A stretch of DNA of 6,750 nt from Candidatus Alcyoniella australis. Its GTDB lineage: Bacteria; Lernaellota; Lernaellaia; JAVCCG01; Alcyoniellaceae. Below, in pieces: positions 1,252 through 4,377 of the stretch. Both the position numbers and the translations under genes were made by a program. The notes under the pieces were generated by a model, which made no database searches, had not been told where the DNA came from, and was given only the letters and a program-made list of their open reading frames with translations. Position 1 is the first letter of the stretch. Every line of letters starts with the position of its first letter. The stretch covers positions 1-6,750 of the forward strand of contig JAVCCG010000062.1 in NCBI GenBank assembly GCA_030765605.1. The letters run 5' to 3'.

Positions 1252-1695
1252 GTGCCAATCAACGGCAAGTCATACGATTGGGAAGATATCACCATCCTGC
1301 TGCCCAACGGCCCGCAGCTCGAGGTGACCGATATCGAGTACAGCGACGAGATGCCCTCCGAGGGCCGCTACGGCAAGGGCTCGGCCCCGCGCGGCTACGG
1401 CACGGGGAAGTGGAGCGGCGAGGGAAAGCTGACGCTCAACCGCGAGGGCTATGACGCGCTGATGGGCTATTGCCTGGCCAAGGGCAAGGCCTACTACAAG
1501 CTGCCCAAGTTCAACATCACCGCTTCCTACGCCAACGACGACAGCGGCCTGCGCGTGGATAAGCTCCAGGGCTGCAAGTTCAACAAGCGCAGCTTCAAGG
1601 CCGCGTCCGGCGACACCAGCAACACCGTCGAGGTGCCCTTCAACATCTTCGACGATCTCATTTCCGACGGCGTCAGCGCCCACGGCAACGTCTAA
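1252..1695 (+). CDS. Tail tube protein
   Basis: This gene encodes a 147-residue protein predicted to form the inner tail tube through which DNA passes. The chosen start is GTG 1252 (MPINGKSYDWEDITI), directly after a strong AAGGAGGG. The upstream frame extension would overlap the sheath gene and has a different, arginine-rich composition. The protein is compact, with beta-strand-like segments: DITILLPNG and LEVTDIEYSDE, then a glycine-rich loop (residues about 42-55, GKGSAPRGYGTGKW), GEGKLTLNREGYDALM, FNITASYAND, and KFNKRSFKAASGDTSNTVEVPFNI. This fits the single-domain tube fold of contractile phages. Position directly after the sheath and before the chaperone supports the call strongly; sequence identity to a named family is less certain. 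A highly expressed structural gene starting with GTG is slightly unusual. Confidence 0.8.
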   Translation: MPINGKSYDWEDITILLPNGPQLEVTDIEYSDEMPSEGRYGKGSAPRGYGTGKWSGEGKLTLNREGYDALMGYCLAKGKAYYKLPKFNITASYANDDSGLRVDKLQGCKFNKRSFKAASGDTSNTVEVPFNIFDDLISDGVSAHGNV

Positions 1696-1718: not shown

Positions 1719-2099
1719 ATGGCTCAGGACGCGACCAAAGACACCCGCCCGCAGGATGCCAAATCCGGCCCCGGCGCTGAACAGATCGCCGCCTGGAAAC
1801 AGCAGCATGGCGATGTCAGCTCGATGCGCGCGGAGTTCGTGGACGATGACGGCCGCGAGATCGACCTCGAGATCTACGTGCGCAAGCCCCAGCGCATGCA
1901 CTACGACCGCCTGCTGAAAGACATCTCTCTGAAACCGGGCAAGGCGATGGTCAACTTCATCCTCTCGGTTCTGCTCTGGCCCTCATCGGAACGCTTTCGC
2001 CAGCTCTGCGAGAAGTACCCCGGGATCTCGGCGAGCCTGGGGGCCGAGATGTCCGAGGGCATGGGGTTCCAGGCGGACGTTATCCGAAAAAAACTATAG
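1719..2099 (+). CDS. Tail assembly chaperone, zero-frame product (lambda gpG / Mu gp41 analogue)
   Basis: This 126-residue soluble protein sits between tube and tape measure, the position of the tail assembly chaperone in nearly all long-tailed phages. Its role there is to bind the tape measure and keep it competent for tube assembly. It does not normally remain in the finished virion. The first 20 or so residues are polar and probably disordered (MAQDATKDTRPQD...). The remainder reads IAAWKQQHGDVSSM..FVDDDGREIDLEIYVRKPQRMHYDRLLKD, then a helical segment with FILSVLLWPSSERFRQLCEKYPG. The EIYVRKP..MHYDRLLK stretch is typical of Mu-type chaperones. The gene ends in CGA AAA AAA CTA TAG, a slippery run of A directly before the stop, so this is the short form of a two-product gene. 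It has its own perfect AGGAGG. Confidence 0.8.
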   Translation: MAQDATKDTRPQDAKSGPGAEQIAAWKQQHGDVSSMRAEFVDDDGREIDLEIYVRKPQRMHYDRLLKDISLKPGKAMVNFILSVLLWPSSERFRQLCEKYPGISASLGAEMSEGMGFQADVIRKKL

Positions 2100-2278
2100 C
2101 GGTCGGGGAGAACCCGTTTCTCTCCGGCCTGTTGCTCGTCCGGCTCTACCTGCGGGAGGAACCCGCGGATGATATCGACGCATTTCAAGATCAGATTTCC
2201 CGGGCCCTGTGGGTCGAGGAACGGCTGATGACTCTGCTCGCGGCGGGCATCGGCAAGGCTTTCGGCGGGGGCGATTGA
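1719..2278 (+). CDS. Tail assembly chaperone, -1 frameshift fusion product (gpGT analogue)
   Basis: The predicted reading is 1719-2093, a one-base backward slip on A AAA AAA, then 2093-2278. This gives 125 + 61 = 186 residues. After the slip the frame reads TIAVGENPFLSGLLLVRLYL, followed by REEPADDIDAFQDQISRALW, VEERLMTLLAAGIGKAFGG and GD, with no stop until TGA 2276-2278. That TGA shares one base with the tape-measure ATG (TGATG). The extension has no well-placed start codon of its own: TTG 2132 and ATG 2228 would discard much of it, and neither has a good ribosome-binding site. Yet it fills the gap between chaperone and tape measure exactly. In lambda, the comparable extension (T) binds the tape measure. 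The fusion is inferred from sequence; the efficiency is unknown. Confidence 0.82.
2087..2093 (+). promoter_or_regulatory. Slippery heptamer A AAA AAA for -1 frameshifting
   Basis: Seven consecutive A residues lie in the phase X XXY YYZ relative to the chaperone frame (third base of CGA, then AAA AAA). Two Lys-tRNAs could therefore re-pair perfectly after slipping back one base. The zero-frame stop TAG comes one codon later (CTA TAG). A Shine-Dalgarno-like AGGCGG (2071-2076) lies 10 nt upstream, a spacing at which such elements stimulate dnaX frameshifting; its role here is speculative. Confidence 0.82.
2101..2129 (+). promoter_or_regulatory. Frameshift-stimulating stem-loop
   Basis: Bases 2101-2112 (GGTCGGGGAGAA) pair with 2118-2129 (TTCTCTCCGGCC) over 12 continuous base pairs, two of them G-U, closing a 5-nt loop CCCGT (2113-2117). 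The stem starts 7 nt after the A-heptamer, within the 5-9 nt spacing typical of -1 frameshift stimulators. Nothing resembling a T-tract follows, and the stem lies inside the -1 reading frame, so a terminator role is unlikely. Confidence 0.8.
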
Positions 2279-4377
2279 TGGGCTCGATTTTCAAGATCGG
2301 CTTCATGATCAGCCTGATGGATAAGCTCTCCGGGCCGATGGCCAACGTCAAGGCCAAGCTGGGTGTGTTTGAGCGCTTTAGCGAACGCGCGTTCGGTCGT
2401 TTCCGCAACGTGGCGAGCAATGCCTTGGGCGAGGCCGGACGCCGCGCGGAGGCGTTCAAGCAGCGGCTTGCCGGGGTCACGACCAAAATCAACGCTGTGG
2501 GGGAGGCAGGCACCAAGCTGTTTCTAATCGGCACAGCGCTGCTCGTGCCGTTTACCCTCGCGGCGCGTGGCTTCGCGATTTTCGAGGATGCCGCAGCCAA
2601 ATTCCGATCTACAGGCGTTTCGGTGATGGGCGACATGGACCGCTCAATGGAGATGGTTGAGCAGCGTTCCCTGAGTTTTGCGGCCCACAACAGGCAGACC
2701 GCCGTGCAGTACCTGGACGCGGCCTACACGATGGTGGCCGCAACCCAGGATGAGATCGCCGCTATTGAGGGCACGGATTGGGCGCTCAAGATGGCCACGG
2801 CGACCTTTGCCGACCATCAGAGCGCGGCCAATATGCTGGCGACCGCATACCTCAATATCGGTGATAAAACCCGCCCGGTGCGAGAAGAGTTTGGGCACCT
2901 GGCCGATGTGATCACCAAGACGCAGCAGACGTTCAAGCTGACGGACCTCGGCGCCCTGGCCGAAGGATTTAAATACGTCGCAGGTTCGGCCGTAGCCGAG
3001 GGCCTGGGCCTGGAACAACTGATGACCAGCCTCGGTCAGCTCAACGACGTGCTCGAAGGATCGCAGGCCGGAACCGCTCTCAACCAAGCCCTGGCCCACC
3101 TGTCGAAGGCCTCGCGGTCCCTGGGATTCGAGATCGAGCGCACTGCTTCGGGCGGCCTGGATCTGATTAAAACCCTGGGCAACATGAGTGACAAGCTGGG
3201 GCACACCTCGACCTGGACCGACCGCACGCGGGAGAGCCTGCGCATGGCGTTCGGGGATGAGGGGTATCGCGCGATCGTCGGGCTGCTGCCCAAGCTCGGC
3301 GAAATGGAAGACAAGTTCGGCGATATTTCCAGCGCCGCAGGCGTAACCCAAAGCACGGTCGATGATCTCAATACTACCTGGTCGGCCAAGATCGACCGCA
3401 TTAAAAACCAGCTCAGCGGCCTGGGCGTGACCTTCGCCAAGTTGGAGGGCACCGGGTTTCAGGGTCGCCTCAACGGCATCTCGCAGGACCTCGTGGTTTT
3501 ACAGCGCTTCATCGAGATTGAGCCGGAGTTGGCGGGCAGTGCCGCTGACAGCACGCTCAAGTTCGCGCTGCTGACCGTCGGCCTGGGGCTGTTCGGCCGG
3601 GTGCTGAAGTTCGTTTGGCCCTTGGTATCAGGCCTCGCAACAGCGTTGACGTGGTTGTCCGGCTTGTTGAAAGGCGGGGGGATCGGGGGGCTGCTGCGCG
3701 GGATTGCTCCGGTCTATGCCGAGGTTGCGCTTGTTTACGCCGCACTGAAGTCGCAGGCCGAGTCATACGGCATGGACCTGCGCGAGGTTGTCGGCGAGAT
3801 GTTCAGCCCCGGCACCCTGATCAAGCTGGAGGATTGGAGCGGTTTCCTTGGCGCGCTGTGGGAGATGATTAATCCCGCGTCGCTATTCAGGGAGGTCTGG
3901 AACTTCTGGGTCGTGCTGCCATTGAACCAGTCGAAAAAGGATTTTGAAGCCCTGATCCTCTGGTTTCGCGGCTCGGGCAAGCGCCTCTGGCAGGAGTTCA
4001 AAGACGGGCTCTCTGAGGGCTGGGGCGACGTCAAAACCTACTTCAGCGAGAAACTGACCTGGATTAGCGGCCTTTTCCCGCACTCTGAGCCCAAGTGGGG
4101 ACCGTTGCGCGGCCTGATGCGCGCGGGCGAGACCACGATGAGGATGTACGCCGAGGGGATCCGGCGTGGCGCGGCCGACCTGGCGCGCACCACGGCCGGG
4201 GCTTTGGCCCTTTCCGCTCCGCGTCCGGCGCTTGCGGCTGCCGGCGGCGGCCGCCACGTAACGATCAGCGTCGGCGACATCGTGATCCACGATCGCAGCG
4301 GCGACTCGCGCGACACTGCCGAGCGCGTCAGGCAGGCCGTGCTGCAAGTCCTGCGCGAGGCCTCGGAGGAAGTCTGA
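2278..4377 (+). CDS. Tail tape measure protein (TP901-type core)
   Basis: This 699-residue protein is expected to fill the tube during assembly, set tail length and help DNA passage at infection. ATG 2278 is chosen (MGSIFKIGFMISLMDKLSGP) because it overlaps the frameshift stop (TGATG) and has GGGGG 6 nt upstream; the GTG at 2209 would run through the frameshift extension. In order, it has an amphipathic, basic helical N-terminus (about 1-75) and a hydrophobic segment at 81-95 (LFLIGTALLVPFTLA). A TP901-type core follows at about 100-340, with FEDAAAKFRSTGVSV, TAVQYLDAAYTM, AEGLGLEQLMTSLGQLND and GSQAGTALNQALAHL. A long hydrophobic, glycine-rich stretch spans 429-490. A PHSEPKWGPLRGL motif starts at about 601, and a charged C-terminal tail covers about 660-699. 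PHS(D/E)xxxGPL near the C-terminus recurs in Mu-like tape measures. It is the longest gene here, directly after the chaperone pair. Confidence 0.93.
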   Translation: MGSIFKIGFMISLMDKLSGPMANVKAKLGVFERFSERAFGRFRNVASNALGEAGRRAEAFKQRLAGVTTKINAVGEAGTKLFLIGTALLVPFTLAARGFAIFEDAAAKFRSTGVSVMGDMDRSMEMVEQRSLSFAAHNRQTAVQYLDAAYTMVAATQDEIAAIEGTDWALKMATATFADHQSAANMLATAYLNIGDKTRPVREEFGHLADVITKTQQTFKLTDLGALAEGFKYVAGSAVAEGLGLEQLMTSLGQLNDVLEGSQAGTALNQALAHLSKASRSLGFEIERTASGGLDLIKTLGNMSDKLGHTSTWTDRTRESLRMAFGDEGYRAIVGLLPKLGEMEDKFGDISSAAGVTQSTVDDLNTTWSAKIDRIKNQLSGLGVTFAKLEGTGFQGRLNGISQDLVVLQRFIEIEPELAGSAADSTLKFALLTVGLGLFGRVLKFVWPLVSGLATALTWLSGLLKGGGIGGLLRGIAPVYAEVALVYAALKSQAESYGMDLREVVGEMFSPGTLIKLEDWSGFLGALWEMINPASLFREVWNFWVVLPLNQSKKDFEALILWFRGSGKRLWQEFKDGLSEGWGDVKTYFSEKLTWISGLFPHSEPKWGPLRGLMRAGETTMRMYAEGIRRGAADLARTTAGALALSAPRPALAAAGGGRHVTISVGDIVIHDRSGDSRDTAERVRQAVLQVLREASEEV

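Follow-up and report, generated by a model that had tools for sequence, protein, structure and literature searches.

The window that we analysed (6750 bases) is an entire contig, from an assembly that totals 4.29 Mb. Along it lie, in this order, genes for the sheath (DUF2586), the tube, a protein with DUF6848 and the tape measure, followed by baseplate genes, and the host element is a Mu-like prophage with a contractile tail of the DUF2586-sheath type. The gene for the DUF6848 protein is placed between the tube and tape measure genes, as a cassette of the lambda G/GT type requires. The features of the locus are collected in Table 1.

Table 1. Genes and candidate recoding signals in the window, with two chaperone-extension junctions from relatives (numbered within loci L007 and L009)
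Feature	Position	Strand	Evidence or remark
Tail sheath gene, DUF2586 (5' end truncated by the contig start)	15..1232	+	Pfam PF10758, E 6.7e-54; PHROG 907 tail sheath, E 3.1e-49
Tail tube gene	1252..1695	+	PHROG 4579 tail protein, E 1.3e-33; sits between sheath and chaperone genes
Zero-frame tail assembly chaperone ('G' form), 126 aa, DUF6848	1719..2099	+	PF20941, E 5.8e-15
Shine-Dalgarno-like AGGCGG, possible 5' stimulator by comparison with dnaX	2071..2076	+	10 nt upstream of the heptamer
Slippery heptamer A AAA AAA, in phase	2087..2093	+	Sequence; kept in the second copy
Predicted -1-frame extension ('T' domain), 61 codons and TGA	2093..2278	+	Homologous -1 extensions; mostly silent changes
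7-nt spacer with CTA and the zero-frame TAG	2094..2100	+	Sequence
12-bp hairpin (2101-2112 with 2118-2129), probable 3' stimulator	2101..2129	+	Folding; pairing in the second copy
Tape measure protein gene	2278..4377	+	PF10145, E 2.8e-19; PHROG 991, E 1.2e-24
Chaperone-extension junctions in relatives	L007 7650-8118; L009 7550-8015		+1 (or -2) frame, UUU then C

The identification of the product of 1719-2099 as a tail assembly chaperone is well supported by the combination of synteny, the DUF6848 match and the predicted fold. A confident structure prediction for the zero-frame protein (pLDDT 84) finds its best structural match in 3fgx (Z 12.6). Behind it come YqbN (3klu, Z 5.2) and the HK97 tail assembly chaperone (2ob9, Z 4.8); both scores are modest, and weak taken alone, yet these entries stand among the top matches and agree with the synteny.

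The zero frame of this gene terminates ATC CGA AAA AAA CTA TAG. An earlier note on this DNA had described a correctly phased A AAA AAA that is separated by one codon from the stop of the zero frame, and this is exact: the single sense codon between the heptamer and the TAG at 2097-2099 is CTA (2094-2096). The heptamer is the sole run of six or more A's in the window, where dinucleotide shuffles yield 0.03 A7 runs. The 12-bp stem that the same note had described 7 nt further downstream is likewise found precisely there, with all 12 pairs able to form (7 G-C, 3 A-U and two that are G·U) around a loop of 5 nt; it is the only uninterrupted 12-bp stem with a loop of 3-8 nt on the plus strand of the window (shuffles, 0.28 per window). 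The 47 nt downstream of the heptamer fold with -21.7 kcal/mol (z -3.7; one of 200 shuffles was equally stable). When 60 nt are folded instead, z drops to -2.0, and 4.8% of all 47-nt windows in this contig, which is rich in G+C, match or exceed the 47-nt fold in stability, so that the stability of the hairpin is by itself weak evidence. Its weight comes from its location directly behind the heptamer, and the case for a frameshift site rests on position, phase and conservation. A comparison with Rfam returned no family at the gathering threshold. The 22 nt upstream of the heptamer, which include the Shine-Dalgarno-like stretch, pair with the anti-Shine-Dalgarno sequence at a raw energy of -5.8 kcal/mol; the corresponding stretch is stronger in three relatives (L050, L056 and L061) and absent in another (L062).

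From position 2093 the -1 frame runs to a TGA at 2276-2278, the A of which is the A of the tape measure ATG (2278-2280); its openness over 61 codons and the base shared with the ATG were also correctly described beforehand, as were all of the coordinates. Joined to 1719-2093, the extension gives a predicted fusion of 186 aa with the junction IRKK|TIAVGENPFLSGLLLVR. The +1 frame closes 23 codons past the stop, at 2172, and the frame that is open and conserved is the -1 frame; a Mu-like -2 (+1) extension was therefore rejected for the window. In a comparison within a set of 16 sequences, the window extension matches the -1 extensions of L051, L049, L048 and L010 (phage FP_Mushu) with E values from 1.9e-6 (L051) to 2.3e-3, and reversed decoys in the same comparison gave no match. 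At the level of sequence, then, the extension is homologous to -1-frame peptides encoded at the same place in unrelated genomes. It also covers the whole length of the Pfam model DUF6890, at an E value (0.0034) that falls under the curated cut-off. A search for DUF6890 in the sample of 386 genomes and in the controls found it in none, and we treat the match as a lead only; other phages may have DUF6890 as the -1 half of a chaperone of this type, orphaned from its zero-frame part.

The sequence TGATG at 2276-2280, in which the -1-frame stop and the tape measure start overlap by one base, has counterparts in similar short overlaps in several relatives. Given this overlap, translation of the tape measure protein may be coupled to frame-shifted ribosomes.

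A second stretch, 93% identical, is present on contig C87 of the same genome (locus L063). The heptamer, the CTA TAG and the spacer are identical in the two copies and the extension is kept. Over the extension the copies differ by six substitutions, distributed 2/0/4 over the first, second and third positions of the -1 codons (dN 0.015, dS 0.088), and over the zero-frame part dN is 0.031 and dS 0.204; the pattern agrees with coding in the -1 frame, in numbers that are small. The stem carries three one-sided substitutions with 12 of 12 pairs kept. We rejected stem covariation as support, because only two sequences share the stem and no pair is altered on both sides; the shuffle control for covariation was uninformative, and the three stem changes are not significant.

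Single-protein searches of viral contigs with the chaperone, sheath, tube or tape measure protein returned no close relatives, so that a wider, sheath-based alignment was needed to gather loci. Such searches of phage records, viral contigs and 386 genomes provided about 30 chaperone loci. An in-phase A AAA AAN within the last five codons occurs in 12 of 31 homologous chaperone genes (not 31 independent cases, because some Thermus/Meiothermus loci are redundant and one genome contributes two copies) versus none of 250 control genes from the same loci. Besides the two copies, ten loci have such a heptamer no more than two codons before the stop, and in nearly every case a single sense codon lies between. 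It reads A AAA AAA in L050 and L051, A AAA AAG in L011, L018, L056, L061 and L062, and A AAA AAC in L057 and L058, while Myxococcus phage Mx4 (L008) has A AAA AAA two codons before the stop. Other heptamers are found in FP_Mushu (A AAT TTG) and in L048 and L049 (T TTT TTR). In the loci with these heptamers the open stretch of the -1 frame spans about 50-75 codons and mostly reaches to near the tape measure gene. Four further loci, L019 (CGA AAA GTC), L053, L054 and L055, have -1 extensions with no canonical heptamer immediately before the stop.

The hairpin behind the heptamer is weak or absent in L011 and L062. Across the sequences compared, the family thus conserves its slippery site and its extension but varies in its hairpin. 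In L060 (reverse complement, 1881-1938) an A AAA AAA lies 48 nt upstream of the zero-frame stop, so that the tail of the unshifted product is longer there than in other relatives.

We consider it very probable that the A7 and the hairpin drive a -1 ribosomal frameshift that yields a short and a long tail assembly chaperone. Direct analysis supports this reading through the anatomy of the site, the conservation of site and extension, the homology of the extension and the chaperone-like predicted fold; the occurrence of slippage, its ribosomal nature, its efficiency and the functions of both forms are what we infer. Ribosomes would read 1719-2093, and most would go on through CTA and stop at the TAG, producing the 126-aa chaperone (G-type). 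A minority, with tRNA-Lys on A AAA AAA in both the P and the A site, would slip back by one base, aided by stalling at the downstream hairpin and perhaps also by the upstream AGGCGG, and would continue for 61 codons to give the 186-aa fusion (GT-type). Both lambda products, short and long, bind the tape measure protein, and tube subunits are recruited by the long one (PMC5009743); by analogy, both forms here would bind the tape measure protein, and the extension would recruit tube subunits so that the tail polymerises to the right length.

Genes for both tRNA-Lys(UUU) and tRNA-Lys(CUU) are present in the host genome. In E. coli, A AAA AAA is reported to be much less shift-prone than A AAA AAG (PMC5009743), so that the efficiency may be low in the window, as would suit a product made at a low level. 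The idea that A AAA AAA is favoured over A AAA AAG by the host tRNA-Lys(CUU) proved unsupported, since genomes with A AAA AAG phages (G056, G198 and G300) also carry a CUU tRNA-Lys, as called in those three by pattern match only.

The same -1 frame would also be reached by standard translation if RNA polymerase slipped on the A7 and inserted one extra A, an explanation that we regard as unlikely. The A7 is homopolymeric, poly-A tracts support transcriptional slippage, and Mx4 has eight A's at the corresponding place; seven A's lie, however, at the lower limit quoted for such slippage (An, n>7; PMC3711429). What the relatives keep, moreover, is the capacity for codon-anticodon re-pairing and not the length of a run, as their heptamers without a long homopolymer (A AAA AAC, A AAA AAG and A AAT TTG) illustrate, and A AAA AAN keeps its phase with respect to the zero frame, a constraint that transcriptional slippage would not impose.

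It is quite improbable, in our judgement, that the extension is instead a small gene in its own right, on which ribosomes reinitiate once they have passed the stop of the zero frame. The records of Mx4, MMP7, Riverbug and FP_Mushu do list it as a separate small hypothetical protein, and the earlier expectation that standard annotation would miss the extension does not always hold, since several relatives carry this separate tiny CDS. From the TAG up to where the extension is conserved, however, the window offers no candidate starts other than internal TTG codons, which lack an obvious Shine-Dalgarno sequence; the similarity of the extension and the open frame both reach back to the heptamer; and heptamers of the A AAA AAN kind near the stop were found in none of the 250 control genes.

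A chance coincidence of a poly-A run with an unrelated hairpin and a frame that happens to be open, for which a G+C-rich contig with its many stable hairpins and long open alternative frames might seem to allow, is contradicted by conservation between genomes and has a negligible probability in view of the rarity of A7 runs in shuffled windows, the correct phase and place of the heptamer, its retention in the second copy, its excess over the control genes and the homologous extension in distant genomes.

Returning to ribosomal -1 frameshifting, its use in the chaperone genes of lambda and other long-tailed phages is established (PMC5009743), including the lambda gpG/gpGT shift and its conservation in long-tailed phages (Xu, Hendrix and Duda 2004, as cited in PMC5009743 and PMC3483164), and A AAA AAG is the heptamer in several of these genes (PMC3483164); the literature thus bears out what the earlier note had said of conserved frameshifting in lambda G/T and many long-tailed phages. 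The window shares with lambda G/GT the position of the gene between tube and tape measure, an XXXYYYZ heptamer and a -1 extension that ends at the tape measure start, and differs in having A AAA AAA with a strong hairpin and a contractile (DUF2586 sheath) tail. No sequence match was found between the chaperone or extension of the window and those of lambda. That the cassette is nevertheless of the lambda G/GT type, by a mechanism already known and not new, is well supported by the sequence and the predicted structure.

Mu, which resembles the window in gene order and tail type, was said beforehand to use a different shift, and two papers give the frameshift in its chaperone gene as -2 (PMC5009743, PMC3498833), with an efficiency of about 2.2% (PMC3498833); the frame and heptamer of the window, in contrast, indicate -1. 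With E. coli dnaX (A AAA AAG, an upstream Shine-Dalgarno sequence and a downstream hairpin) the window has in common a poly-A heptamer and a downstream hairpin, and perhaps the upstream stimulator, for which AGGCGG is a candidate. It differs in its A AAA AAA; moreover, the -1 product of dnaX is the shorter one and the genes are unrelated. A further parallel is p57/p58 of Mx4, a Mu-like myophage with the same gene order, a -1 extension and an in-phase A AAA AAA towards the end of its chaperone gene, though with two codons between heptamer and stop and with p57 and p58 annotated as two hypothetical genes. The Mx4 genome paper (PMC8530038) does not mention frameshifting, and in the literature that we searched we found no published record of it in this lineage. 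The earlier suggestion that the signal may be unrecorded consequently stands for this lineage within the literature searched, but not for the mechanism, which is that of lambda G/GT.

A group of Meiothermus and Thermus loci (L007, L009, L012-L017 and L025), together with L052, encode the extension in the +1 (equivalently -2) frame. At the crossover, the position of which was deduced from where the similarity of the extension starts, an in-phase UUU followed by C (CGN or CUN) is present in all 10 loci (GAT UUU CGG in MMP7), and nine of the ten have it nowhere else in the gene. The +1 site of influenza PA-X likewise has UUU_CGN as its core (PMC3498833), which the inferred crossover resembles in this respect. 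In a single comparison, the +1 extension of Meiothermus phage MMP7 and the -1 extension of L019 are alike (52% over 29 residues, E 1e-9), from which the direction appears to have switched within one family. On balance we favour such a switch among homologous Mu-like chaperones, between -1 on A AAA AAN in the window and most relatives and +1 (or -2) in Thermus/Meiothermus. If true, it could show how a recoding site turns while its product stays.

Taken alone, the cassette in the window confirms a well-established principle. It also allows the chaperone and its fusion to be annotated correctly across a lineage of Mu-like myophages whose deposited records split or overlook the extension, and the relatives form a set of homologous cassettes, with differing heptamers and directions, in which the evolution of recoding signals can be tested.

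Two further observations concern the copies in this genome. Positions 1-120 of the window and of the reverse complement of L063 start at the same first base and are identical in sequence, as if the assembly had broken at a repeat common to two near-identical Mu-like prophages. Between positions 2278 and 4000, the tape measure gene of the window has flanks that are about 94% identical to those of G000:C87 (L063) on both sides of a middle part with about 50-75% identity, a pattern that suggests that the core of the tape measure gene has been exchanged.
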